From: Vibrio mimicus
Lineage (GTDB): Bacteria > Pseudomonadota > Gammaproteobacteria > Enterobacterales > Vibrionaceae
Length of the DNA stretch: 64,000 nt
NCBI RefSeq assembly: GCF_019048845.1
Contig: NZ_CP077426.1
Coordinates: 2,775,501-2,839,500 of the forward strand
Reading direction: 5' to 3'
The notes beneath the pieces were generated by a model. It had not been told where the DNA came from. It did not search any database and was given only the letters and a program-made list of their open reading frames with translations. Both the position numbers and the translations under genes were made by a program. Position 1 is the stretch's first letter, and every line of letters begins with the position of its first letter. Shown piece by piece: positions 613-14,522 of this stretch.

Positions 613-981
613 ATGACATTAACCAACACCCTACTCCGATACGCCGCTATGACCATCCTGTTTATCGGGCTCACCGCTTGTGGCGACCAAAAAGAAACTC
701 AAGCAGCAACGGCAGATATTGAAGTGTCGATATCAGCTAACCCTCACTGGGGAACATTGGTCTTTGACCTACAAGCTATCACCAACAACACCGTAATACA
801 CGATGTAGTGATTAACCGTGGCAACTGCCGATTACCCGCAGGAACAGCCTCAGAGCTATCAAGAAACGTTTCATTGAAGTTCGGCCAAACCTATACCGGA
901 TATAGCAACAACTGCACAGTAGACAGCGTGAAAGAAATCGAAGTCACCTCCAGTGCTGGCACCTTTGTCTACACCTTCTAA
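613..981 (+). CDS. Small predicted lipoprotein (122 aa)
   Basis: The N-terminus has a hydrophobic segment ending in a lipobox LTAC with the acylated Cys at residue 23, so export and lipid attachment are predicted. The mature part of about 100 residues contains two further Cys (in NRGNC and NNCTV) that could form a disulfide in the periplasm, and alternating polar/hydrophobic strands suggesting a beta fold. Family not recognised. It lies in an island, 48 bp before another small exported protein, so the two may work together at the envelope, for instance as surface or exclusion proteins; this is inference only. Confidence 0.7.
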   Translation: MTLTNTLLRYAAMTILFIGLTACGDQKETQAATADIEVSISANPHWGTLVFDLQAITNNTVIHDVVINRGNCRLPAGTASELSRNVSLKFGQTYTGYSNNCTVDSVKEIEVTSSAGTFVYTF

Positions 982-1028: not shown

Positions 1029-1256
1029 ATGAAAAAGTCAACTCTACTCATCACAGCAGCGTTAGTTTTCTCAACCTCTTCCGCATTTGCTGGTGGAACA
1101 CTGGGCGGTAACCCATCCGCACATTCGGGAGCCGTTAACGTCAGTGTAGGCAAATGTACTCAATACAAAATGGATGTAAAAACAGCGCAACAGGAAGGTA
1201 AGGATGTATCGACCATCACCGTTCCTGAAGGCTGTGAACCAGCCAAAGAAAAGTAA
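1029..1256 (+). CDS. Small secreted protein (75 aa)
   Basis: An AAGGA ribosome site sits 7 bases before the ATG. The first 21 residues form a typical Sec signal peptide (MKKS, hydrophobic core, cleavage after AFA). The mature peptide of about 54 residues starts with Gly-rich sequence and has two Cys (GKC and EGC) that could pair in the periplasm. No family recognised. It is followed within 30 bp by a strong rho-independent terminator that is duplicated 9.5 kb further on. Confidence 0.65.
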   Translation: MKKSTLLITAALVFSTSSAFAGGTLGGNPSAHSGAVNVSVGKCTQYKMDVKTAQQEGKDVSTITVPEGCEPAKEK

Positions 1257-1281: not shown

Positions 1282-1317
1282 CAATGGGGAGCAATTACGC
1301 TCCCCATTCTTTTTTTG
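1282..1317. terminator. Rho-independent terminator, copy 1 of a perfect 36-bp repeat
   Basis: Arms ATGGGGAGC and GCTCCCCAT enclose the loop AATTAC and are followed by C and seven T. It can end the small secreted-protein transcript. An identical 36-bp copy is at 10766-10801; homology weakly extends upstream (CAGCAAC and an A-run precede both). Confidence 0.9.
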
Positions 1318-1494
1318 CTTCTATACGCAAACCGTACAATCAATAAGTTGGCCTTCTCAACTCATTTTGGACATTTATGAGTTAGAGTTAACACTCAATA
1401 AAACCATAACATTCACAAAAACTGACTACTTATTCAAAGGTGAAGTGGTTAAGTTTTATTGACCACTAACTTAGAATCTAGCCAATATCTCTGC

Positions 1495-3552
1495 TCACCC
1501 GTTTGCCCCTGCTCTAGAATCTTTCTTCAATACTTCTATCATTTTCTGTTCATGTTCAAGGATCTGCTGTACTCCCCATTCCCCACTGTGATTAAGGTGC
1601 TGGATCATTTCGTACAGTTTCAATGTATCTATATTTTTATCGTTGATGGCAGATTTAAAGTGATCACGCTTTGCCGAAGGTAGTAGATTGCTTAACTTCG
1701 AGTTTTTACTATGGCTGATAAGGCATAAGTTACCAAAACGATGCAGCTCGCTATTATTCAGCTTTTTATGGCCATCTAATGGGTGTTGTGGGTAAAAGTG
1801 CTCGACTGAACTGCGGAAGGTAAACTCAAACTGGTTTATAACAGCATCGGTACTGCTTTCTATACCATTGCACCAAAGCAGGTAATCTAGGTAGTTGAAT
1901 ACCAAGTTATTCTCAATCGCGCCATACCTTAGTAAATCCATCACCGAACCATCATAATTATCCAAGGATCGATAACCCGTCCCCTGGTAAATCATGGCGA
2001 AATACTCTGCACCTTCTGGCTGTAAAAAACGGCCAAACACAAACTGGCGGGCTAGATGCTCAAGTTTTTCAAGATAAGCAACAGGGCTTATTTCATCCAT
2101 ATAGTACAACTGATACAACGCACCATTGAGCCAGTGTTTATAGACGAGGGTTGGCGTAGACACATGAAGTGCGCTCAACAACATCAAGATACGCCGGTTA
2201 ATTCCCTCGAAGCCATCTTCACTATCATTGTTCGCGCTACTGTCAAAGGTATTGATGTAGCTTTGGCTCTTATCATTGTAAAAATGTAAGCGCTTGAGAC
2301 TCCATTTATCTTCACCCTGAGTAAATTCACGCTTGATAATGTATTGATCAAATAGGTACTTAGACTTTAACAAGGCAAATACAAAATCTTTTACCGCTTC
2401 GATTCTCGCTTGTTTGTCCAACAGATCTTTTTTCAATAGATACTGTTCAAACTGCTCAAGTAACCGCTTGTCATCCAAGGCAACATCTTGCTGCGTAGAT
2501 ACTCTAAGTACGTGCAGTAGGAAGTTCGAGAAGTTAATCACGCTATTAAAACGCTCTGGGGTAAGCTCAGTGTCACGACTGCTTTTTGCTGAAGGTGGAT
2601 TAGCCAGCATGTCACAGAAACGGATAGAAACGTCAGCACTTATTGTGGTGACGATTTGGCCTTCACGATTAGCGATGATACTCTGCACATCGTCATAGTT
2701 TTGTGGGGTAAACTTGCCCCAATCATTGGTGCCAAAAAGCTCATGTCGCTCGGCTTTGCTAAAACCGTATTGAATGTAGCGCTCCATGTTTGCGGTTGCG
2801 TCCCACACCTTCGCCAGAACCTCAATACTCTGCTCACGCTCATTTTTATCTTCAATGTCGTTCAATGCTGACATTAAACGAGCTTTAACTACCTCGTGTT
2901 TTTCTAGTTGCTCACCACGGTTATTCATCACCTCAAAATAGTGATTTAAATCGGTATCTCTTGGTACAGAAACACGAGCGATTTCCACTTGATTAAAAAG
3001 GTAGGAGCAGAAGTCACCCAGCTTATCACCTAGAGCCAATAAGCCTTTTTCGAGAAGATGATATCCCTCAACAACATCAAGGTTGAAATCATCATTTTTC
3101 AAGTTCTCTAATGCAACACCTTGTTTCAAAGCGGAAAAAGTATCTGAGGATTTTGGTCGGCTCTCAAAGTCCAGATTGGGTGCGTAATACCAATCCATAT
3201 CTATAGATTGTGCCGCAGAGTGTTTACTTTCAATTGAAATGTTGCCCTTTGCAATGCGTTTGAGCGCAAAGGCGAGCAAAGTCAGTGTCGTGAAACGTTG
3301 CTGACCATCGATAACTTCAAACTGGCCATCAGGGCGCTCAAATACCACTAAAGTGCCAATGTAGTAGGGTTGATTAGGCTTGTGCTGCTGGTAGTCCTGC
3401 ACATCTTGAATAAGTTGGTTGATTTCTCCTTCACCCCAAGCGTAGTTGCGCTGATACATAGGCACGAGATAGCGGCTGTTGTCTGCTAGCAGCTCTTTCA
3501 CTCTAAAGCTGTGAATACCATCGTGCACTTTTGAGCCCAGACCGTTATTCAT
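1495..3552 (-). CDS. DUF262-DUF1524 protein (GmrSD-like nuclease)
   Basis: 685 residues with an N-terminal DUF262 (ParB/sulfiredoxin-like NTPase) domain: YQRNYAW at 33-39 and the signature IDGQQR at 81-86. The C-terminal 100 residues match DUF1524, the HNH-type nuclease domain: EHFYPQ at 584-589, FGNLCLIS at 606-613, then NSKLSN. This is the same domain order as GmrSD-type (type IV) restriction enzymes and SspE, which cut modified or invading DNA. It starts inside the end of the upstream DUF262 gene (8-bp overlap), so the two are translationally coupled. Role in defence against phage or plasmids is inferred from the family and from the neighbouring TerY-P-type operon. Target specificity cannot be read. 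Confidence 0.85.
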   Translation of the reverse strand: MNNGLGSKVHDGIHSFRVKELLADNSRYLVPMYQRNYAWGEGEINQLIQDVQDYQQHKPNQPYYIGTLVVFERPDGQFEVIDGQQRFTTLTLLAFALKRIAKGNISIESKHSAAQSIDMDWYYAPNLDFESRPKSSDTFSALKQGVALENLKNDDFNLDVVEGYHLLEKGLLALGDKLGDFCSYLFNQVEIARVSVPRDTDLNHYFEVMNNRGEQLEKHEVVKARLMSALNDIEDKNEREQSIEVLAKVWDATANMERYIQYGFSKAERHELFGTNDWGKFTPQNYDDVQSIIANREGQIVTTISADVSIRFCDMLANPPSAKSSRDTELTPERFNSVINFSNFLLHVLRVSTQQDVALDDKRLLEQFEQYLLKKDLLDKQARIEAVKDFVFALLKSKYLFDQYIIKREFTQGEDKWSLKRLHFYNDKSQSYINTFDSSANNDSEDGFEGINRRILMLLSALHVSTPTLVYKHWLNGALYQLYYMDEISPVAYLEKLEHLARQFVFGRFLQPEGAEYFAMIYQGTGYRSLDNYDGSVMDLLRYGAIENNLVFNYLDYLLWCNGIESSTDAVINQFEFTFRSSVEHFYPQHPLDGHKKLNNSELHRFGNLCLISHSKNSKLSNLLPSAKRDHFKSAINDKNIDTLKLYEMIQHLNHSGEWGVQQILEHEQKMIEVLKKDSRAGANG

Positions 3553-5014
3553 AATACTTCATCTCCTGAAACAGTCTTTCAATTTCTGCTAGCTTGGTGC
3601 CTTTGACCTCACTTTGTTTAATGGTCTGTAGCGGCCAATTTAAAACATCACTTGGCTGTATGGCTTGCTTAATGCGCTCGAATACATTGTGCTTTAGCGC
3701 ATGATTATCCATCGTTACCAGCTGCACCACCTGCATTTTCAAACGACAGCGATAAGCCCAAATAAACAATTTTTCAATCGCTTGAGATAGCTGATGTGAC
3801 CCAAATTTATCTAGATAGAAAATAACCCCGCAATCAAACAAGGTGCGAACGTAACAATCACCTGTTCGAGTACGTGACGAGTAGCTATTTAGGGTACGCA
3901 AAATCCGATCCGCTAATGGTTCTAATTCATGCCCCAATATTGTAATCGGCTTGTGTTCATCGCCTGTATGCTCACTGTCGATAATCGTGCTAATAGTCCG
4001 TTGGTAGTAGCTAGTCATTTCAAAAAAACGGCGACCATTGATGATCATCTGATCAAGATGAAATGGAAAGCCCATCGTTTGATGATCGATCTTCCTTTGA
4101 TATTGACTGTTATAGTCGTCTACAAAATGATGGGATATTCTTAGCGGCTCAACATAAGGATACAACCCAACTTGCTCAAGGTTTACCCCTTTAAACAGCT
4201 CCACCTGGGACTTATCAAAATACTGTGCAGGTTTGCCTTGCGCCCAATTACGAATACGAAATAGATAATTGGCAAACAGGTTTGCAAGTTGCGCGCTTTG
4301 CAAACTTTCCCAATGACTCACAGACTGGGCTTTTAGCTCGTTTTCTTGGTTTGAAAATTCGCGCAAGTGGTACGCTTTTAATAGATCGTGAGGATCGAGA
4401 TCGCGCCCTCTGGCATTTTGAGAATCAAAAAACTGAAAAGCTTCTGAAACGTCATCCAGCACAAACGTAACCACTTCACAGCGGTTGAGTATAAAATCGA
4501 TATCCGCTTCGGTAAAGTCACTGCGGCTGACGGCTCTTTTGGCCGCCATAAAGTTTTGATGCAGATTGTGGTGCGAAATATCGCTACTAAAGCGTTGCTC
4601 AGTTAAAAAACTTGCTAGTGGGACTTTAAGCTTTTGTAGGCTGTCCCGAACATCTTCGCGCTTTATCGCTTGCTGTTTGCTTGAGCTTTGCAGGCGTTCT
4701 TCAATTAACGCCTGCACCAATAACACCAAGGTGAGCGTGCGCTGCTGACCATCTACGATATCTAGCTGCTCTACTTTTTTCTGGCCATGACCACCACCGT
4801 CGTGACGGTGAAACACCACCGCCCCTAAACGATAGGCCGACTTATCACGATACACTTTTAAATCGTTTAATAAATCAGCAAGGTTGGCTTGTGTCCATTT
4901 ATAAGGGCGCTGGTATTTGGGGATAACCAAATTTTCCAGCGCCAATAACTCTCCAACCTTAGTCACCCTTTTATCAAGGAAGTGCGATACTTTCTTTGCT
5001 ATACAATCCGCCAC
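3545..5014 (-). CDS. DUF262-only partner protein
   Basis: 489 residues from a GTG start that has AAGGA 8 bases upstream; a TTG at 5032 is in frame but has no ribosome site. DUF262 motifs are complete (YQRPYKW at 34-40, DIVDGQQR at 85-92), but no HNH/DUF1524 motif is found at the C-terminus, which is instead an alpha-helical domain. It therefore resembles a separate sensor/NTPase subunit paired with the nuclease-bearing downstream gene. Start lies one base after the stop of a 48-codon ORF, and its end overlaps the downstream gene by 8 bp, so all belong to one minus-strand operon. Paired DUF262 genes occur in restriction-like loci; the mechanism of this two-protein form is not known to me. Confidence 0.82.
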   Translation of the reverse strand: MADCIAKKVSHFLDKRVTKVGELLALENLVIPKYQRPYKWTQANLADLLNDLKVYRDKSAYRLGAVVFHRHDGGGHGQKKVEQLDIVDGQQRTLTLVLLVQALIEERLQSSSKQQAIKREDVRDSLQKLKVPLASFLTEQRFSSDISHHNLHQNFMAAKRAVSRSDFTEADIDFILNRCEVVTFVLDDVSEAFQFFDSQNARGRDLDPHDLLKAYHLREFSNQENELKAQSVSHWESLQSAQLANLFANYLFRIRNWAQGKPAQYFDKSQVELFKGVNLEQVGLYPYVEPLRISHHFVDDYNSQYQRKIDHQTMGFPFHLDQMIINGRRFFEMTSYYQRTISTIIDSEHTGDEHKPITILGHELEPLADRILRTLNSYSSRTRTGDCYVRTLFDCGVIFYLDKFGSHQLSQAIEKLFIWAYRCRLKMQVVQLVTMDNHALKHNVFERIKQAIQPSDVLNWPLQTIKQSEVKGTKLAEIERLFQEMKYYE

Positions 5015-5015
5015 G

Positions 5016-5162
5016 CTAGCTTTCCTTCTCAAACGGCAGACGATTTCTACCTGTTAGCAACTCTTGTATCATGCCTTGTTTGATTCGGCATGTTTTCGCC
5101 AAGCGCTGTTCGTCACAGCTTGCCCAGAGGGGTGAATAGAGTTCTATTTTTTTAATAGTCAT
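5016..5162 (-). CDS. 48-aa ORF resembling the C-terminal tail of HsdS
   Basis: An ATG-started ORF (48 residues) ending one base before the DUF262 GTG. Its second half, LAKTCRIKQGMIQELLTGR at residues 21-39, closely resembles the usual C-terminal tail of type I restriction specificity subunits (LAKTR.IKQGMMQELLTGRIRL). It is either a decayed remnant of hsdS or a tiny gene that keeps the tail as a leader peptide coupling translation to the DUF262 pair. No hsdM or hsdR is seen in the window. The tail similarity is from memory of the family. Confidence 0.5.
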   Translation of the reverse strand: MTIKKIELYSPLWASCDEQRLAKTCRIKQGMIQELLTGRNRLPFEKES

Positions 5163-5173
5163 ATTTGTAAAGC

Positions 5174-5365
5174 TTAATAAGAATTGGGCAGTGATAATTT
5201 GTTGGTATCTAAGCCTGAGGCTTTTAGGCGTGTGGTGAGGTTTTTCATCTTACTGAATTCTTTGCCATAACTAGGTTTTAGCTTTAACTCTTCACAAAAT
5301 TCTCTCACTGTAATGTTGACCAACTCATCAGCGTACTTAATCGACTGTAAGTGAAGCTCAGCCAT
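5174..5365 (-). CDS. Small basic protein (63 aa) heading the DUF262 operon
   Basis: 63 residues, Lys/Leu-rich, probably helical, ending 11 bp before the HsdS-tail ORF, in the same orientation as the DUF262 pair. No clear Shine-Dalgarno sequence precedes the ATG. Not recognised; the size and charge would fit a small DNA-binding or regulatory protein, but no helix-turn-helix can be asserted. Could also be a remnant of a larger restriction gene. Confidence 0.45.
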   Translation of the reverse strand: MAELHLQSIKYADELVNITVREFCEELKLKPSYGKEFSKMKNLTTRLKASGLDTNKLSLPNSY

Positions 5366-5939
5366 AAATCCATTTCATGGAGCGGAGGCACGCATCCTCT
5401 TTAATCATTTTGTTCACAATACCCTAAACACGATTTGCAGGATTTTGTACTAGTAAATCATTCAAAAAATTTGAGTTATCATTATGTAATGTACAGTTTC
5501 AACTCTCTTTAGAGTCCACGATCTATCTTTATTGTCAATCCATTCAATTTGATCAATCTCTCTCCACTGTGTTCACTTCGTAGTGTCTCCGGAATCTTGA
5601 AGAAGAACTATCCATTAGCCAGTTTCATATTTGTTTCAAGTGAATCATGCCACTACAGTTGAAACCTATCTTTCAGAAAATATTCAGCCCAAAGATATCT
5701 TTTACAGTATGAAGAACATCGTCTTGTTTGATTATCAAACAGTCGGGCAAGAACTTTTCCTGTGTGTTCCTTGGGTGATGAATCGGGCTGTCGGCAAAGT
5801 GGCGGCTACAGCTGATTATTAAAGGATAAAAATTGACCTTACCAGCGTAAATATTCTAAAAATGTGATGCTGGTAAGCAAATTTCCTTTCTCGCTGCTTT
5901 ATCTTAACCTTTTGATAAAACTAGCAGTCGAAGGATATT
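5366..5939. other. Divergent intergenic region between the DUF262 and vWA operons
   Basis: 574 bp, AT-rich, separates two divergent defence-like operons and must contain both promoters. A 37-codon ORF from ATG 5711 (or 63 codons from TTG 5631) runs to 5822 on the plus strand, but lacks a ribosome site and is not recognised; it may be a gene remnant. An inverted repeat CTTACCAGC (5838-5846) / GCTGGTAAG (5869-5877) lies 62 bp before the vWA start. Confidence 0.6.
5838..5877. promoter_or_regulatory. Inverted repeat upstream of the vWA gene
   Basis: Perfect 9-bp arms CTTACCAGC and GCTGGTAAG separated by 22 bases. Arm centres are 31 bases apart, about three helical turns, which would suit a dimeric repressor, or the RNA could fold as a leader hairpin. 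No T-run follows, so it is not a typical terminator. Confidence 0.4.
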
Positions 5940-6773
5940 ATGAGCTACAGTGCCGAAATCAGTCGTACCAATCCTACAGCGTTCTTGTTCTTGGTAGACC
6001 AATCTGGATCAATGCAAGATTTCATGACCAATGGCAAGTCCAAAGCCCAGTTTGTAGCCGATGTTCTTAATCGAACGTTAGCCACTCTCATTACTCGCTG
6101 TACTAAGTCAGAGGGTACTCGTGATTACTTCGAGGTTGGTGTTTTAGGCTACAGCGGTTCTACCGCAGAGAACGGTCTTGCCGGAGCATTATCAGGGGCA
6201 ATTATTCACCCAATCTCTCAAATTGAAGCTAATCCATTGCGTGTAGAAGACCGGATTAAGAGGGTAGATGATGGTGCGGGTGGTCTAGTCGATCAAGCTA
6301 TCAAATTCCCAGTATGGTTTGAGCCCAAGGCGGCAGGCGGAACTCCTATGTGTAACGCCATCACCAGTGCTGCTGAGCAGTTAGTGGCTTGGTGTGATGC
6401 ACACCCAGACAGCTACCCGCCGACTGTGCTGCATATCACTGATGGTGAGTCAACTGATGGTGAACCAGGGAGCTTAGCCCAGCAACTCCAACAGATTAGT
6501 ACCAACGATGGCAACGTCCTATTATTCAATCTTCACGTGAGCTCTAGTGGTGGCGACCCCGTAAAATTCCCCTTCTCTGACGCAGGCTTAAGTGACTGCT
6601 ATGCAAAGCTTTTATTCAGCATGTCTAGCCCTTTACCTGTGCACCTTCAAAAGGTTGCTGAAGAGAAAGGGATTAAAGCAACGATGGAATCTCGTGGTTT
6701 TGTTTTTAATGGAGAAATTACTGAGGTTGTGGACTTCTTTGATATTGGCACCCGTGCCGCCCAGCTACGTTGA
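5940..6773 (+). CDS. TerY-like vWA-domain protein (TerY-P triad)
   Basis: 277 residues, preceded by AAGGA. A von Willebrand A fold with a complete metal-ion-dependent adhesion site: DQSGS at 20-24, Thr in GGTP at 135, and Asp in ITDGE at 168. No signal peptide, so cytoplasmic like TerY. It overlaps or abuts the next gene (PP2C phosphatase), which is followed by a kinase, the arrangement called the TerY-P triad. By family knowledge the vWA protein scaffolds or senses while the kinase and phosphatase set a phosphorylation state; triads of this type have been reported to protect from phages. The specific trigger here is unknown. Confidence 0.87.
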   Translation: MSYSAEISRTNPTAFLFLVDQSGSMQDFMTNGKSKAQFVADVLNRTLATLITRCTKSEGTRDYFEVGVLGYSGSTAENGLAGALSGAIIHPISQIEANPLRVEDRIKRVDDGAGGLVDQAIKFPVWFEPKAAGGTPMCNAITSAAEQLVAWCDAHPDSYPPTVLHITDGESTDGEPGSLAQQLQQISTNDGNVLLFNLHVSSSGGDPVKFPFSDAGLSDCYAKLLFSMSSPLPVHLQKVAEEKGIKATMESRGFVFNGEITEVVDFFDIGTRAAQLR

Positions 6774-6775
6774 CT

Positions 6776-7513
6776 ATGGAATTCAGAATCCTGTTTGATG
6801 GAACCGTAGCCAAGCATACTGAGCAGCCATACGATAACGAAGATGCTTACCGCATAGACCAAGAACGAGGTCGCGTGGTACTTTCAGATGGTGCTTCTGA
6901 GTCTTTTGATGCTAAAAACTGGGCAAATCTGCTTGTGGATGCATGCATAGATACCGAGCCTTTAGATGAGGCGCTCTTTGCATGCATCCAAAAGTACAAT
7001 CTTCAATATGATCCGAGCACTCTCTCTTGGTCAAAAGTAGCAGCTTACGAAAGAGGTAGTTTTGCTACGATGTTGATTGTTCAAGATGACCCCATCCATA
7101 AAAACGTCAGTGTTAGTGCTATGGGAGATAGTCTTGCTGTTTGGAGCGATGGTAATAACCTGCTAGATACAACACCCTATTCTTGTGCAGACCAATTCAC
7201 TCAAAAACCGATGCTTCTAGCAACGCGCAACGAGTTAAATCCATCATTAAGCGATACCAGTAGTGTTTTTTTGACTCAAAAGATGTGGAGCTACGAAGAT
7301 AATAAAACGCATTTTCTTCTCTGTATGACTGATGCTCTCGGGGCATGGCTACTGCACCATCAGGAGCATGGTGATAAGTCGGCACTTGAGAGACTTATTA
7401 GCATCAGAAGCCAGCAGGAGCTTCAGTACCTTGTTGAAACAGAACGCACTTCTGGAAAACTCCGCAGAGATGATACCACTTTAATTATCATTAGCCTGAC
7501 TTGTGAAGTTTAA
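6776..7513 (+). CDS. PP2C-family protein phosphatase (TerY-P triad)
   Basis: 245 residues from ATG 6776, three bases after the vWA stop; a TTG at 6770 overlapping that stop is in frame but less likely. PP2C motifs are present: NEDAYRID at 21-28, VLSDGAS at 35-41, a GSFAT block, AMGDS, MTDALG and RRDDTT near the end, giving the metal-binding Asp residues. Soluble Ser/Thr phosphatase expected to oppose the downstream kinase. Tightly packed between vWA and kinase genes (3-bp gap to the next start). Confidence 0.88.
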   Translation: MEFRILFDGTVAKHTEQPYDNEDAYRIDQERGRVVLSDGASESFDAKNWANLLVDACIDTEPLDEALFACIQKYNLQYDPSTLSWSKVAAYERGSFATMLIVQDDPIHKNVSVSAMGDSLAVWSDGNNLLDTTPYSCADQFTQKPMLLATRNELNPSLSDTSSVFLTQKMWSYEDNKTHFLLCMTDALGAWLLHHQEHGDKSALERLISIRSQQELQYLVETERTSGKLRRDDTTLIIISLTCEV

Positions 7514-7931
7514 ACCATGGCATATCCAACCCTTGAGCAATACAACGAGGCACTACAGTCCCCACAACTTGTATTACAAGACGCAGAGTTAAAGCATGGC
7601 ACATTAAAGACTACCGGTTTAGGACTTCCACTTGCCTTATGTGGTGGATTTGCACTCACGTATACTGTACAGGTTGGAGGTAAGAAGTTTGCGCTGCGTT
7701 GTTTTCACAAGGAATCACGAGAGTTAGAGAGACGATATCAAGCTATATCTGCTCGAATTAAACAACTGGCTAGCCCTTACTTTCTACCATTTGAGTTCAT
7801 TCCAGCAGGCATTCGCATTCAGGGAGCTATGTATCCCATCGTTAAGATGGCTTGGGCTGTAGTGGCATAGTGAATTTGGCCACCTGATTAGAGCTGTTAT
7901 GATTGCAACCATAGCAGCATTAGGTGACGAA

Positions 7932-9121
<1,190 letters not shown>

Positions 9122-10474
9122 CCACTACAGGCACAAGGACAAACATTAGCTGAATTCCTAGAAAATGAGTATCGTAATCCCCAATCTCTTCAAAGACTAC
9201 GGAAAGCTCTGTCTAATTTAGCTGATTTTCTGGAGAAAAATCAGATTTCTCATGGTGATATTCAGCCAGAAAATATAATGGTGAGTGCAGGTGGCAGCAC
9301 GATTCAACTTATCGATTATGATGGAATGTATGTTGAGGCATTGCAATCATCTAAAGCAACCGAATTAGGGCAGGTAAACTTTCAACATCCCAAACGCACT
9401 GCTAATGATTTCAACGAAAAGCTTGATCGCTTTTCTTTTTTGACGCTGGATGTCGCACTCCAAGCATTGATAGCATCATCTTCAATTTGGACTATTTCTC
9501 GCTCTGAACCAAGTGCAGTTGTGTTTAGGCGGAATGATTTTCTAGATCCTGGTTCATCATCGATTTTTAAAGAGATTTTAAAAATCAAAGGCGTGGACTT
9601 ACATGCCAAAAATTTAGCTAGAGTCGCTGTTGGGGAATTTGATAGGGTTCCTACACTTGCGAATTTCCTTCAGAACAAAGGAATCTATCACGAGGGCATT
9701 ACATTTGGTCAGGGCGCTACCTTGACCAAGGCTGGCTATCAAGGTGCATATGTAGTTTGTGATGCTTTGAAATATGAAAAAGTATTTGAACAGGTTGGGA
9801 ACAGAATAGAGCTCATAGGTAAAATCCATTCTGTTCACCGTGGGTGGGGAGCGAATAAAAAACCTTATGTATTCGTGAATTTCTCTGATTGGCGCGGAAA
9901 AGCAGTCAAGCTAGCTATCTGGTCTGATGGCATGAATGCTATTGGTACTAATGTACCGGACCAAACTTGGGTCGGCCGTTGGCTATCAGTTACAGGTCTC
10001 GTTGATACGCCTTATCATGGACATGCAAAATCGACTACTTACACACATATCTCGATCACTATAACTGCACCTGGTCAGATACAGCATATACCAGAACAGG
10101 AAGCCAAATATCGTCTTCTTGGGGGTATCGCAACACCTACAAAGGGTGCTGTATCGAGTCCAAATGCTAATATTCTCTCAACGATGACGAAAGGGACTGG
10201 ATCTCTAGCTCCAACTTCACCAATTCAAATAACACGGACACCCCAAGCCCCCCAGAAGAGCCCAAATCAACAGTTACTTGAGAAGATGCGAGCTCAGCAA
10301 GTACCTCAGGCAACATATACGAAAGCTCCCCCCGTATACCGATATTCAAATATGGGGAATTCAACAAAGAGTAACCCAACTGTTACTAATAGGAAATCAT
10401 CCGGTTTAGGTTGGGGAGGGTGGCTTTTTATTATAATTGTAGGCTTTATGCTCCTACGAGGTTGTGCAAGTTAA

Positions 10475-10846
10475 ATTTTATAGCTTGGTATTGCGTTGAT
10501 ATAGAATCTTTACAGCATTGACGGCGGAGAATGAATTCAGGACTGGCTTTCCGTAATTGCTTTATCAGGCTTGGTATGGGACCAATTTCTCGAACAAGAA
10601 ATCCCTCTTCATAAGTGACTGAATAATCTACAACACGACCCTTACCGACCTCTAAAAAATTATTATATTTCATACAATTACCAATCACTAAAAAGTAAAC
10701 AAGATTAGATGCTAGTTATGTAGAAATTACTTAAGCATCTCAATCGCAGCAACGCTAAAAAGCGCCAATGGGGAGCAATTACGCTCCCCATTCTTTTTTT
10801 GTCTCAATGCACTGGTTTGAAGGTATATGTTATCTGTTAAAAAAGC
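10475..10846. other. Intergenic region downstream of the kinase
   Basis: 372 bp. A minus-strand ORF of 80 codons (10446-10688) overlaps the kinase end by 29 bp; it has no good ribosome site and no recognised family, and I do not call it. The second copy of the 36-bp terminator repeat is at 10766-10801. Nothing else recognised. Confidence 0.5.
10766..10801. terminator. Rho-independent terminator, copy 2 of the 36-bp repeat
   Basis: Identical base for base to 1282-1317, in direct orientation. On the plus strand it ends transcripts from the triad; a minus-strand transcript of the toxin/immunity pair, ending 46 bp away, would also read a stable hairpin. Together the two copies bracket the 9.4-kb defence block. 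Confidence 0.9.
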
Positions 10847-11248
10847 TTATCTACGAAAAGCGATTAATAACAAAACAGGGAGACCTGTTAGCCACACATT
10901 AGCCAATAGAGTCGACAGTCTATATATAGGATAATCAGAACCATAAATAGATTGGATGCTTTGACGCCACTCTTGAATCTCTTCCTTCGGTATTCGCCAA
11001 CCGTACCTAAGCATGAGGTATGCGTACCATATGTGACTTGTAGAACTAGCAAACACCCATGAAAGATTACTCTCTAAAATAAATTTAGCTCGTTCTCTAA
11101 ACTTAGATGGCGCACTATTCACAATGCTATGAAGCATCTCATACTTTCTCTTCCGAAGCTTAATTGATAAGTAGAGATTCAAGATCAAGTATGGGAACCC
11201 GCCTACTACTAGCAGTAACACTCCAGCTTTAATAACTAAATCAATCAA
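10847..11248 (-). CDS. Candidate immunity protein, two membrane segments (133 aa)
   Basis: Starts at TTG 11248, overlapping the last 8 bases of the toxin-like gene; an upstream in-frame stop leaves no longer start. A transmembrane helix at about residues 5-27 and another at about 110-130 flank a charged cytoplasmic or periplasmic loop. A small inner-membrane protein encoded in overlap behind a large toxin with a hydrophobic C-terminus is the typical layout of a pore-forming effector and its immunity protein. Family not recognised; role is inferred from position and topology. Confidence 0.6.
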   Translation of the reverse strand: MIDLVIKAGVLLLVVGGFPYLILNLYLSIKLRKRKYEMLHSIVNSAPSKFRERAKFILESNLSWVFASSTSHIWYAYLMLRYGWRIPKEEIQEWRQSIQSIYGSDYPIYRLSTLLANVWLTGLPVLLLIAFRR

Positions 11249-13793
11249 AGATCATTTCCTCAATAACTTTCCCTGTATCGTTCGAGAGTTCTCCTCCATA
11301 CATTCCCCAAATAAAAGATCCACCAGCGACCAATGCAATTGATAGTCCGCCAGTAACAGGTATAAGAGCGATTCCCCATCCTATCGCAAGTCCACCCAAA
11401 ACGTTTGTCAGGCCTGACGTACTATTTCTAACAACACTTCGATTGCAGGTTTCCTCAAACCAACCACTCGTATTGCATGTTTTGGCTACATCCATAGCAT
11501 TACCATACAAGCCAGCCCCAATCACTAACCCATTGGCAACACCCAAAAATCGACTGAAAGACATAGCTTGCTTATACAAACTAGTCATCTCAATCCCTGA
11601 GACCGCCTTAGAGAAATCTTTCGCTCGATACAATTGTCGCTTACCGACATTAAGGTAGTCATTGATACGCTTCGCTTGAACATTTTTAATGTAACCCGGC
11701 TTACCAACCTCCGAAAGAATAGATTTCATCTCCTTTTGAAAGTCTCTCGCTTCTTTTCGCCATGACTTGTAATCAGGGTTAGAATAGAGAGCCTGCCCTG
11801 ATAAGCCTTTGGTTTTCTCTGCAATATAGCGCGAATATTCAGCAAATGACTTCATCCTTTTGCTAAGCTTGTCCCCTTGAACCTGAGCGCCAGCAACTAC
11901 GGCTCCAGCTCCTGCAACTATGTGATTTAAGTTAAAATCGCTAAGTTCTGTTGAAGCAGATTCACCTTGGTAAACATCTAGGCCGGATGTCGCCGCAACG
12001 AGTAAAGCATTGGTTGCCGTTTCATGGTGCTCTGCAAACCATTTCTTCTCTTCACTAGAGAGCTTCAGATACTCAGTCATAAGATCATTAGCTTGTTTGA
12101 TAGCGACTTCTTCATCTGGATGTTTTTCTACCCATGGCGACACAACCAAAGGCATCCCTTCAATAATTTGGCTAAAGCTGCGTTTGAGGTGAGGATTCGA
12201 TTTGAATACATGGTCAAGAATCGCCTTATCTTTTGATAAATAGGTTTCTTGCGCAAAATCTTCCACACTCATTTTCTTATCGGCGAAGACAAGATATACA
12301 TCATCGACATCCAGAGGAGAGATTTGCCCCAAGTTAGCTACGACAAGGCCATTATCCAGAACAGTCTCGCTGTTGATAGGTTTAGCTGATGTTCCCTGAA
12401 AATTGCCGTTGTAAGCATAGTGAGTGTTTGCAGCTTGATTGTATGTCTTGGGCTCCACTGGCGGTAAATCACGTTGAACGATTTTGGTACTATCAAGATC
12501 TACAGGCTCTTGAACCGTGAGCGTATCCCCGACTTTCAATGACATCGGGTCAGCGTTGTACTGTGGATTCAAATCCAGTAATTGTTTCGCCGACAAACCA
12601 TATTGCTCTGCAATGGCTCCCCATGATTCTCGTTGGTTGGTCTTAGAGTCCGTTCCAACAGTATGCGTTTCTGGTTTACTCTCTGCTTTCTCTGTGTCCG
12701 AGGGTTGAATGGTTTGTCTTTCTGCGACAGGTTGCTTGGGCGCAGCAAGCAATTCGTTGATATCAAGTTTAATACCATGTTGAGCCAACCAGTCATCATT
12801 GAGGTTGTCTAACTCTTCTCGGGTAATTGGCTGTTCAAGATAAATCAGATGTTGGTTTTCAACGTCTTTACCTTCGAGCTTCCAGTAAACCAGAATGGCG
12901 CTTTGATAGATGTTGTAGCCTTGCTCATCATTGAGCTGCTCGTGGGTTGAACGTGTCGCGTAGAAGGCCCACTTACCATTGCCAAGCAGCTTGTACTCTT
13001 GAACTAAGCGGCCATTGTAGAAATGGTAGTAGTAGCCTTCTGTTGGTAGCCCCAAACGCTCACCAAGCTGCACTGAGGGGACAACTGGGATAAAGGCTTC
13101 TCGTACTACACCAGAGCCTATAGGCTTCACCTGCACATTGTTGGGGACACTCATTCCCAAAGCATTGGACGCTACTTTGGCGACCAATTTTTTCGGTTCA
13201 TCAAAGGCGGTATGAGCCGTATATTTTGTACCGTGCTCGGTTGCCTCCGCCTGCCAACGGCCAATCAGGGATTCTTGTTTGGTTTTCGCCAGTTCAAACG
13301 CATACCCCACGCTTTTTCTAAACGTCTCATCCGAGCAAGCCACTTCAAAGCAATATTCGTATTGCAGTTTTGGTGGTGCATCTGAGGAATCAGGTTTTAC
13401 GGGCTCAGGAACGTAGGTCTCTTCAATGTTAGGCGCATAACCAGCGGAGCTTTGAGTGGGCGCAGCACTGCCAGCCGCACCGCCAGACATTTTTGTTCTG
13501 GACAGGTAGGCACTTTTCGCTTCTGGCGATAAAGCCTCTTGCCCTTCCGCCGACAAGCTCCATGATTTGCTCATACCATCTCGGAGCATCACAGGCTTCG
13601 AAGGTGAGTCCGTCAATAGTGCTAACTCACCACTTTTCAACTTCTCCATAAAACTGGAATAGCTCATCCCCTGAGGGAGTGCTGAGCCTAACGCTCTTTC
13701 GTCCAGCCTACCAATGTCACCTTCAACCTGACCAAACTCATATGCCATCAGTTCGGTTAACCGTACCACTCGATAACCCACAGTTAAATCCAT
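11241..13793 (-). CDS. Large LysM-domain protein, candidate secreted toxin (850 aa)
   Basis: Start ATG 13793 chosen over TTG 13799; the ribosome site is weak. Residues about 225-340 contain the pattern GYYYHFYNGRLVQEYKL ... SAILVYWKLEGKDV ... PITREEL, which resembles the N-terminal region of VasX-type type VI effectors. A LysM-like segment follows (WGAIAEQYGLSAKQLLDLNP ... LKVGDTLTV, about 390-430). The last 70 residues are Gly/Ile/Leu-rich (TSGLTNVLGGLAIGWG, then GGLSIALVAGG) and could insert into membranes like a colicin pore hairpin. No signal peptide. With the overlapping small membrane protein it looks like an effector-immunity pair carried as island cargo. Alternatives are a phage tail or adhesin component. 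Function is inference. Confidence 0.6.
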   Translation of the reverse strand: MDLTVGYRVVRLTELMAYEFGQVEGDIGRLDERALGSALPQGMSYSSFMEKLKSGELALLTDSPSKPVMLRDGMSKSWSLSAEGQEALSPEAKSAYLSRTKMSGGAAGSAAPTQSSAGYAPNIEETYVPEPVKPDSSDAPPKLQYEYCFEVACSDETFRKSVGYAFELAKTKQESLIGRWQAEATEHGTKYTAHTAFDEPKKLVAKVASNALGMSVPNNVQVKPIGSGVVREAFIPVVPSVQLGERLGLPTEGYYYHFYNGRLVQEYKLLGNGKWAFYATRSTHEQLNDEQGYNIYQSAILVYWKLEGKDVENQHLIYLEQPITREELDNLNDDWLAQHGIKLDINELLAAPKQPVAERQTIQPSDTEKAESKPETHTVGTDSKTNQRESWGAIAEQYGLSAKQLLDLNPQYNADPMSLKVGDTLTVQEPVDLDSTKIVQRDLPPVEPKTYNQAANTHYAYNGNFQGTSAKPINSETVLDNGLVVANLGQISPLDVDDVYLVFADKKMSVEDFAQETYLSKDKAILDHVFKSNPHLKRSFSQIIEGMPLVVSPWVEKHPDEEVAIKQANDLMTEYLKLSSEEKKWFAEHHETATNALLVAATSGLDVYQGESASTELSDFNLNHIVAGAGAVVAGAQVQGDKLSKRMKSFAEYSRYIAEKTKGLSGQALYSNPDYKSWRKEARDFQKEMKSILSEVGKPGYIKNVQAKRINDYLNVGKRQLYRAKDFSKAVSGIEMTSLYKQAMSFSRFLGVANGLVIGAGLYGNAMDVAKTCNTSGWFEETCNRSVVRNSTSGLTNVLGGLAIGWGIALIPVTGGLSIALVAGGSFIWGMYGGELSNDTGKVIEEMIFD

Positions 13794-14001
13794 CCGCAAC
13801 TTTCAATGGATGTATTCTACCTAACCAGTGGGAGTTGCAGGATTTATAACCATAAGTTCGGTCTACCAATTGCAGACATTGTGATTTTCACCCACTACAT
13901 CCAAACCTATTGATAATGACTTCATCATTAACCAACTTAGCCCAAACAAAAATAGGGCATAGCTTGAGAGGTGTTGCCCTCCCAAACTATGAATTCTTGT
14001 A

Positions 14002-14442
14002 TTAGTCAGCTTCCGCCGCTTCAACCGCCAACAGGTCAGCTCTTTCATTCCCTTCAATGCCCGAATGTGCTTTGACCTTAAATACCTCGACATACTTCCT
14101 AGAACTCAACTCGTCCACTTGTTGCCAAAGCTTGCGGTTTTTAACTGGTTTCTTATCCGCTCGACGCCAACCTCGACCTTTCCAATCGTCCATCCAGATA
14201 TTGAAACCTTTCACACAGTAATCGCTGTCCGAGTAGATAACATCCCCATCTTCTGCGTATTCCAATGCTTCAATTAAGGCCAGTAGTTCCAGCTCAGCAT
14301 TGTCGGTTTTTCGATTGATGGTGATGCTCTCTTCATGAACAATCGCGTTGTCTTCATCCATGACCACCAGCCCGATACCACCTCGTGTACATCCGTGTTG
14401 GTTGTTCGGTGCAGCGCCGTCTACGTAAATTGAATAACTCAT
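14002..14442 (-). CDS. Ribonuclease HI (island copy)
   Basis: 146 residues from ATG 14442, which has GGAGAG 8 bases upstream; a longer frame to 14475 lacks support. RNase H fold with all four acidic residues: Asp in YVDGAAPN, Glu in AELELLAL, Asp in YSDSDYC, and Asp in NERADLLA, plus the KAHSG loop. It degrades RNA in RNA-DNA hybrids. VSP-II carries an RNase HI gene beside an AlpA-type regulator, and this copy sits in the same place. Possible roles are primer removal during island replication or R-loop control; the sequence does not tell. Confidence 0.92.
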   Translation of the reverse strand: MSYSIYVDGAAPNNQHGCTRGGIGLVVMDEDNAIVHEESITINRKTDNAELELLALIEALEYAEDGDVIYSDSDYCVKGFNIWMDDWKGRGWRRADKKPVKNRKLWQQVDELSSRKYVEVFKVKAHSGIEGNERADLLAVEAAEAD

Positions 14443-14522
14443 TTTTTTATCTCTCCAATTGCAAAAAGGGCGCATGACTTTGCTTAGTCAGCGCCCGTTG
14501 ATGATGTGATTTGATGTTTGTG

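Follow-up and report, generated by a model that had tools for sequence, protein, structure and literature searches.

Stacked VSP-II-like island slots as a probable origin of a terminator repeated around defense cargo in Vibrio mimicus

Defense systems lying side by side in genomic islands are well known, and the way in which two such blocks became neighbors can seldom be read. The closest described setting for the case presented here is Vibrio seventh pandemic island II (VSP-II), which has a tRNA-Met site (PMC3974666), includes genes for an RNase H (VC0498) and a DNA repair protein (VC0510) (PMC8248653), and is known to carry defense systems on its variants (PMC3974666, PMC8248653, PMC12409362). 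One of these is GrwAB, a GmrSD-like two-protein system of the WASA VSP-II variant (PMC12409362). In one group of V. cholerae, a toxin/immunity block has been described that separates the VC0495-VC0498 side from the VC0504-VC0510 side (Haley 2014, PMC3974666), so that the variability of this slot is partly known already. For the immunity arrays of Vibrio type VI secretion system (T6SS) clusters, sequential displacement by homology-facilitated illegitimate recombination has been proposed (Kirchberger 2017, PMC5361080). Here, we describe a 64,000-nucleotide stretch of a Vibrio mimicus genome (RefSeq assembly GCF_019048845.1, contig NZ_CP077426.1, positions 2,775,501 to 2,839,500; “the window”), in which a terminator-like repeat, whose two copies we call T and T′, brackets two defense-like operons at what appears, from gene layout and Pfam domains, to be the variable slot of a VSP-II-like island, extending from T and the gene before it to the RNase H gene rnhA.

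The reading we prefer, with a probability of roughly 0.6, is that the slots of two related islands were stacked by recombination that was homologous on one side and illegitimate on the other, T′ being the terminator of the older locus. T (positions 1282 to 1317) and T′ (10766 to 10801) are identical over 36 nt, in direct orientation and 9,448 nt apart, and they form the core of a wider repeat pair of 62 nt with 87% identity (1263 to 1324 and 10747 to 10808), composed of the 3′ untranslated region (UTR) of sec75 and the terminator hairpin. We use the name sec75 for the 75-amino-acid (aa) secreted-protein-like gene before T (1029 to 1256, plus strand; signal-like start by eye), which has no Pfam or NCBIfam match. 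A first-pass annotation of this DNA had reported the identical, same-orientation 36-mers and weaker similarity continuing upstream, and both hold at the lengths given. A consensus scan predicts a terminator on either strand of both copies, both fold far better than shuffled sequences (z, −4.55 to −6.88), and the 26-nt hairpin core occurs twice in the window versus never in 100 shuffles. A composite transposon or a target-site duplication is ruled out, since the repeats are 62 nt at 87% identity and consist of sec75 3′ UTR and hairpin, not of insertion sequence (IS) ends or short exact target copies.

Genomes often contain repeated terminators, and T and T′ might on that ground be two chance copies of such an element. 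Yet within the whole 4.35-Mb genome they are the sole places that match the hairpin core with up to three mismatches, the match between them extends over 62 nt, and the linkage is conserved in relatives, which leaves chance a negligible probability. At the same threshold, a hairpin match is found in 25 of 196 Vibrio genomes, 19 of which also contain the adjoining lipoprotein gene (present in 21 of the 196 overall). With two copies in its own genome and this distribution among relatives, T is largely specific to the locus; a generic terminator scattered across the genome, one of the cases that would have refuted the first-pass interpretation, is thereby ruled out.

The sec75-T arrangement is found in 32 loci, comprising the window, 30 loci from other Vibrio genomes, and one from Marinomonas spartinae. 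This set leaves aside T-like hairpins without sec75 (G114, G144 in two places, G045, G168, G191, and G032), as well as G170, where the left side is unseen on a 3-kb contig, and a weak case on contig 7 of G147. The hairpin is regular in 30 of the 32 loci and decayed in two. A single locus (G174) is free of cargo, with 236 nt from T to rnhA, nine have one T followed by an immunity-toxin block, and 17 have other cargo or run into a contig end. The remaining five, namely the window, G023, G034, G080, and M. spartinae, have two T copies around cargo that differs from one to the next. The first-pass annotation had anticipated a single terminator joining sec75 to a toxin/immunity pair as well as two copies around different cargo, and both arrangements are thus borne out, the former including a member of the window's own toxin (88 to 89%) and immunity (88%) family behind a single T in G185 (contig 163). 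In G023, the window's toxin (95%) lies beside T′ and the cargo is an Olokun-like pair. The M. spartinae locus (L095, 365 to 8000) holds a VSP-II-like slot in full, with T in two copies and the linker described below, and it retains an N-terminal toxin remnant 95% identical to the window toxin. In G130, an orphan 73-aa immunity-type gene stands without a toxin; together with the M. spartinae remnant, it fits the displacement that stacking would leave behind.

Among 19 cargo proteins from other loci, PADLOC (E values up to 1e-10) matched five, as OloA, OloB, GajA, GajB, and a weak LmuB-type protein, and gave no match for the other 14; the term “defense cargo” is accordingly established for three of these relatives only. 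Across 30 loci (435 pairs), ungapped identity to the right of the hairpin starts at 0.77 over the first 10 nt, drops to 0.37 over the following 10, and is about 0.27 past 60 nt, and to its left it is 0.63, 0.51, and 0.40 in successive 20-nt steps, the latter values being blurred by insertions and deletions since the count is ungapped. This fall-off fits T as the edge of the slot, without proving it. T is most likely a native terminator, predicted to act in both directions, at the left edge of the slot, where it appears to be conserved as any needed terminator would be. We also observe that the hairpin loop is reversed relative to sec75 (GTAATT-type, not AATTAC-type) in T of G024b, G108, G042, and G224, and likewise in the linkers of G023, G034, and G080.

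That linker, which precedes the second T in relatives, has the layout motif-rnhA 3′ part joined to sec75 3′ end-T′. We read it in G023, G170, G080 (twice), and M. spartinae, amounting to five copies in four genomes and two genera. Its left part holds about 190 to 200 nt of the rnhA 3′ part with the downstream motif GTATATGTTATCTnnnAAAA, and its right part opens with the sec75 3′ end. In blastn comparisons of G170, G023, and M. spartinae, rnhA similarity stops at CCATCA and sec75 similarity begins at ACCATCAC, with 6 to 7 nt of microhomology at the join. The join letters are identical in the second linker of G080 (G080_2), and the first (G080_1) has a small deletion there; the two stand in tandem around different cargo, the second without a hairpin. 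In a tree of rnhA (27 rows, with the short remnant of G034 omitted), the five linker remnants cluster with native rnhA from G095 and G047 (support, 95/99). The four comparable copies are only 58 to 73% identical to the intact rnhA of their own locus. Hence, the rnhA part of the linker is not a local duplication, and it appears to derive from a foreign island lineage. The left cargo flank of the window (1318 to 1373) is G047-like (89% over 1280 to 1373), G047 being one of the two genomes with whose native rnhA the linker remnants cluster.

The order of events that we infer begins with an older locus, sec75-T-immunity-toxin-rnhA, in which what is now T′ would have been the original terminator. 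The slot of a second, related island (sec75-T-cargo-rnhA) would then have been stacked on its left, parting T′ from its sec75. On the left, homologous recombination presumably acted in the sec75 side common to both islands, and on the right the join was presumably illegitimate, at a short microhomology; for the former we have sec75-T conserved in 32 loci, and for the latter the microhomology join of rnhA and sec75 in relatives. If the window itself passed through such a linker stage, later changes (the TerY-P block and an IS3 element, both described below) would have left only about 20 nt and T′ of the linker, and the sec75 3′ UTR remnant at 10747 to 10765, recognized from the 62-nt repeat pair and by blastn to native left ends, would be the sole leftover of the join on the right side of the cargo. 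Selection for termination may have preserved T′, probably since it ends the immunity-toxin transcript and now that of the kinase operon too.

Several observations weigh against this stacking history. No strain series shows the events in order, and before T′ in the window there is neither an rnhA remnant nor a second motif, so that its own linker stage is unseen. G034 has a shorter and different join. When the linker of G170 was searched against 227 Vibrio genomes, any match was found in 29, and the two-part linker was recovered only in G170, G023, and G080, with up to three candidates scored per genome, so that its absence from the others is not proof. Finally, the rnhA tree is weak at 13 of its 24 inner forks, and the rnhA remnant of G080_2 is equally close (80%) to G220.

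The bare right side of the cargo also suits a one-step insertion that skipped the linker stage. In that case a donor sec75-T-cargo segment would have recombined by homology on its left, its right end being fused illegitimately some 20 nt ahead of the recipient's T. Such an event would account for the missing rnhA part and for sec75-T similarity that begins only at 10747, and G034 shows that a different join can occur. However, the same toxin family stands behind the shared linker in G023 and M. spartinae, which makes erosion of a linker the simpler origin, and we regard the one-step insertion as unlikely. Even less probable is a toxin block that has T for its own terminator and arrived with it as a unit, T′ being baggage and the cargo having come between by chance. 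T-like hairpins do flank toxin blocks that lie apart from sec75, in G114 and on contig 80 of G144, but sec75 gene letters precede T′ in the linkers of G023, G034, G080, G170, and M. spartinae, and letters resembling the sec75 3′ UTR precede the hairpin even in G114, which suggests a sec75 locus as the source of the T that accompanies the toxin block.

Site-specific recombination at T or at the motif GTATATGTTATCTnnnAAAA, in the style of a cassette system, could draw on the position of both elements at slot or block edges and on the conservation of the motif, which occurs almost exclusively at these loci (28 of 196 genomes, versus four for a reversed control). We consider it very improbable, as Pfam and PADLOC scans recognized no recombinase gene in the window cargo, the IS3 transposase apart, the readable joins sit in rnhA and sec75 coding sequence, and the hairpin is absent from the G080_2 linker. 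An integron-type cassette array is also disfavored, the readable joins falling in coding sequence and not at a recombination site. The first-pass view of the terminator as a cargo-exchange site thus stands in part: T marks the duplicated edge of the cargo, but since the readable breakpoints of the relatives lie in coding genes and one linker does without the hairpin, these data do not make T a special exchange site or a crossover signal. Deletion or swap of the block between the two 36-nt copies is plausible, but no deletion between them was observed, and none was sought in reads.

The fused flanks of the linker might further serve as a portable joint, its left half being homologous to the motif-rnhA edge and its right half to the sec75-T edge. 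As each half corresponds to one conserved slot edge, blocks could be inserted or swapped on either side of the linker by ordinary recombination. This extension is tentative, and we place the odds somewhat against it. If true, defense and toxin blocks could be stacked, swapped, and deleted across species without a dedicated recombinase, the terminator would keep stacked blocks transcriptionally separate, and the tandem linkers of G080 around different cargo may represent such an array. Here, the join between blocks is readable, is common to several species from two genera, and indicates a donor island lineage. The proposed route for building defense islands without a recombinase is testable, and it would account for a terminator duplicated around cargo. 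As a separate observation, G220 (L203, L204) appears to show stacking on the other side, with an rnhA fragment (aa 68 to 154) behind the toxin block and the intact rnhA some 30 kb beyond it.

The cargo between T and T′ consists of two divergent operons, which the first-pass annotation had recognized as defense-like and which we assign to a minus-strand GmrSD-like pair and a plus-strand TerY-P triad (5940 to 10474). The pair comprises a GmrSD-like protein with DUF262 and DUF1524 (GmrSD_N and GmrSD_C in Pfam; HEC-06/Orf5/SspE-type PADLOC matches) at 1495 to 3552 and a partner with DUF262 and DUF7834 (Pfam, PADLOC) at 3545 to 5032. The triad has its three genes in order and in one operon, with a TerY (vWA) protein (5940 to 6773; PADLOC TerY, 3e-162), a PP2C phosphatase (6776 to 7513; PADLOC PP2C, 4.5e-98), and a kinase-OB gene in two pieces. 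The 5′ piece (7517 to 7857; PADLOC STK_OB) and the 3′ piece (9130 to 10474; PADLOC STK_OB on 9278 to 10474) are separated by a plus-strand IS3-family insertion at about 7858 to 9129, identified from plasmid matches annotated as IS3 family transposase and from break points with a 3-nt overlap; this split had gone unnoticed in the first pass. The inner ends of both pieces were set by alignment with an unbroken triad that the genome carries at another location (G000:C2, about 188525 to 192505; 96 to 97% DNA identity). For flanks and triad copies, the best two or three candidates per genome were scored, and absence there is not proof.

Right of T′, the motif GTATATGTTATCTnnnAAAA lies at 10823 to 10842; it is conserved among relatives, beside T where the locus is of the toxin type and in the 3′ flank of rnhA in other loci. 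A small minus-strand gene (10847 to 11248) follows in the immunity position of the effector, assigned by this position and by co-occurrence with the toxin. It has no NCBIfam match, and its product is 100% identical over 132 aa in G023 and 88% identical in G185 (contig 163). The toxin gene itself (11241 to 13799, minus strand) encodes a LysM protein whose N-terminal half resembles the VPA1263 T6SS effector family and whose C-terminal half differs (Pfam, NCBIfam, homologue search). Against the NCBIfam model of that family (NF047924), it scores 667 bits, below the curated cut-off of 900, and covers only profile positions 1 to 374 of 711; we therefore do not class it as a full VPA1263-family effector, the first half being shared and the DNase end not. 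The effector looks mosaic, as residues 1 to 494 also turn up with different C-terminal halves, and in G067 and G155 the 496-852 half is joined to other N-terminal halves. The start of its gene (12525 to 13888) has a 79% match on the Vibrio harveyi plasmid NZ_CP116418.1.

On the left of the slot, upstream in the same genome, a tRNA-Met (L103, 9132 to 9207) stands beside a tyrosine integrase (L103, 9373 to 10614), followed by TatD, QueC-like, KAP NTPase, and RadC genes and two DUF2787 genes, and then, toward T, by a 244-aa gene, the lipoprotein gene, and sec75. The row of TatD, QueC-like, 285-aa, and KAP NTPase genes (L103, 11165 to 15851) is reminiscent of a QatABCD-type defense operon. A tie to gamma-mobile-trio islands is no more than conceivable. 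The 122-aa lipoprotein-like gene (613 to 981, plus strand), named by eye, has no Pfam or NCBIfam match. On the right, rnhA (14002 to 14475, minus strand; Pfam, NCBIfam) forms the edge of the slot beyond the toxin, and genes with a YagK/YfjJ domain follow. Both conserved sides of a VSP-II-like island, RadC-type and RNase_H, are thus present according to Pfam.

In its tRNA-Met site, integrase, RNase H, and RadC-type gene, the island resembles VSP-II and VSP-II-like islands as presented in the available text of PMC3974666, PMC8248653, and PMC12409362, where the terminator edge, the series of no-cargo, one-T, and two-T loci, and the rnhA-sec75 linker are not described for VSP-II. Among the titles and abstract openings searched, we likewise found no description of terminator-marked or rnhA/sec75-linked stacking, nor of a reused linker carrying both slot edges. 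By domain architecture alone, the window pair can be likened to GrwAB, with two DUF262 proteins of which one carries DUF1524; unlike it, GrwAB lies, according to PMC12409362, in the LAT-1 region that replaces VC0511-VC0515, on the other side of the island. The triad matches the standard TerY-P arrangement of PADLOC (TerY, PP2C, and STK_OB) with all three genes in order, but differs in its IS3-broken kinase gene. As for the process, the stacking history shares with the model of Kirchberger 2017 (PMC5361080) one homologous and one illegitimate side, older immunity genes left behind, and further spread of blocks by ordinary recombination. It differs in that the model concerns an immunity-gene array in T6SS clusters, whereas here whole defense blocks occupy a VSP-II-like slot, with a shared linker comprising both slot edges and with a duplicated terminator.

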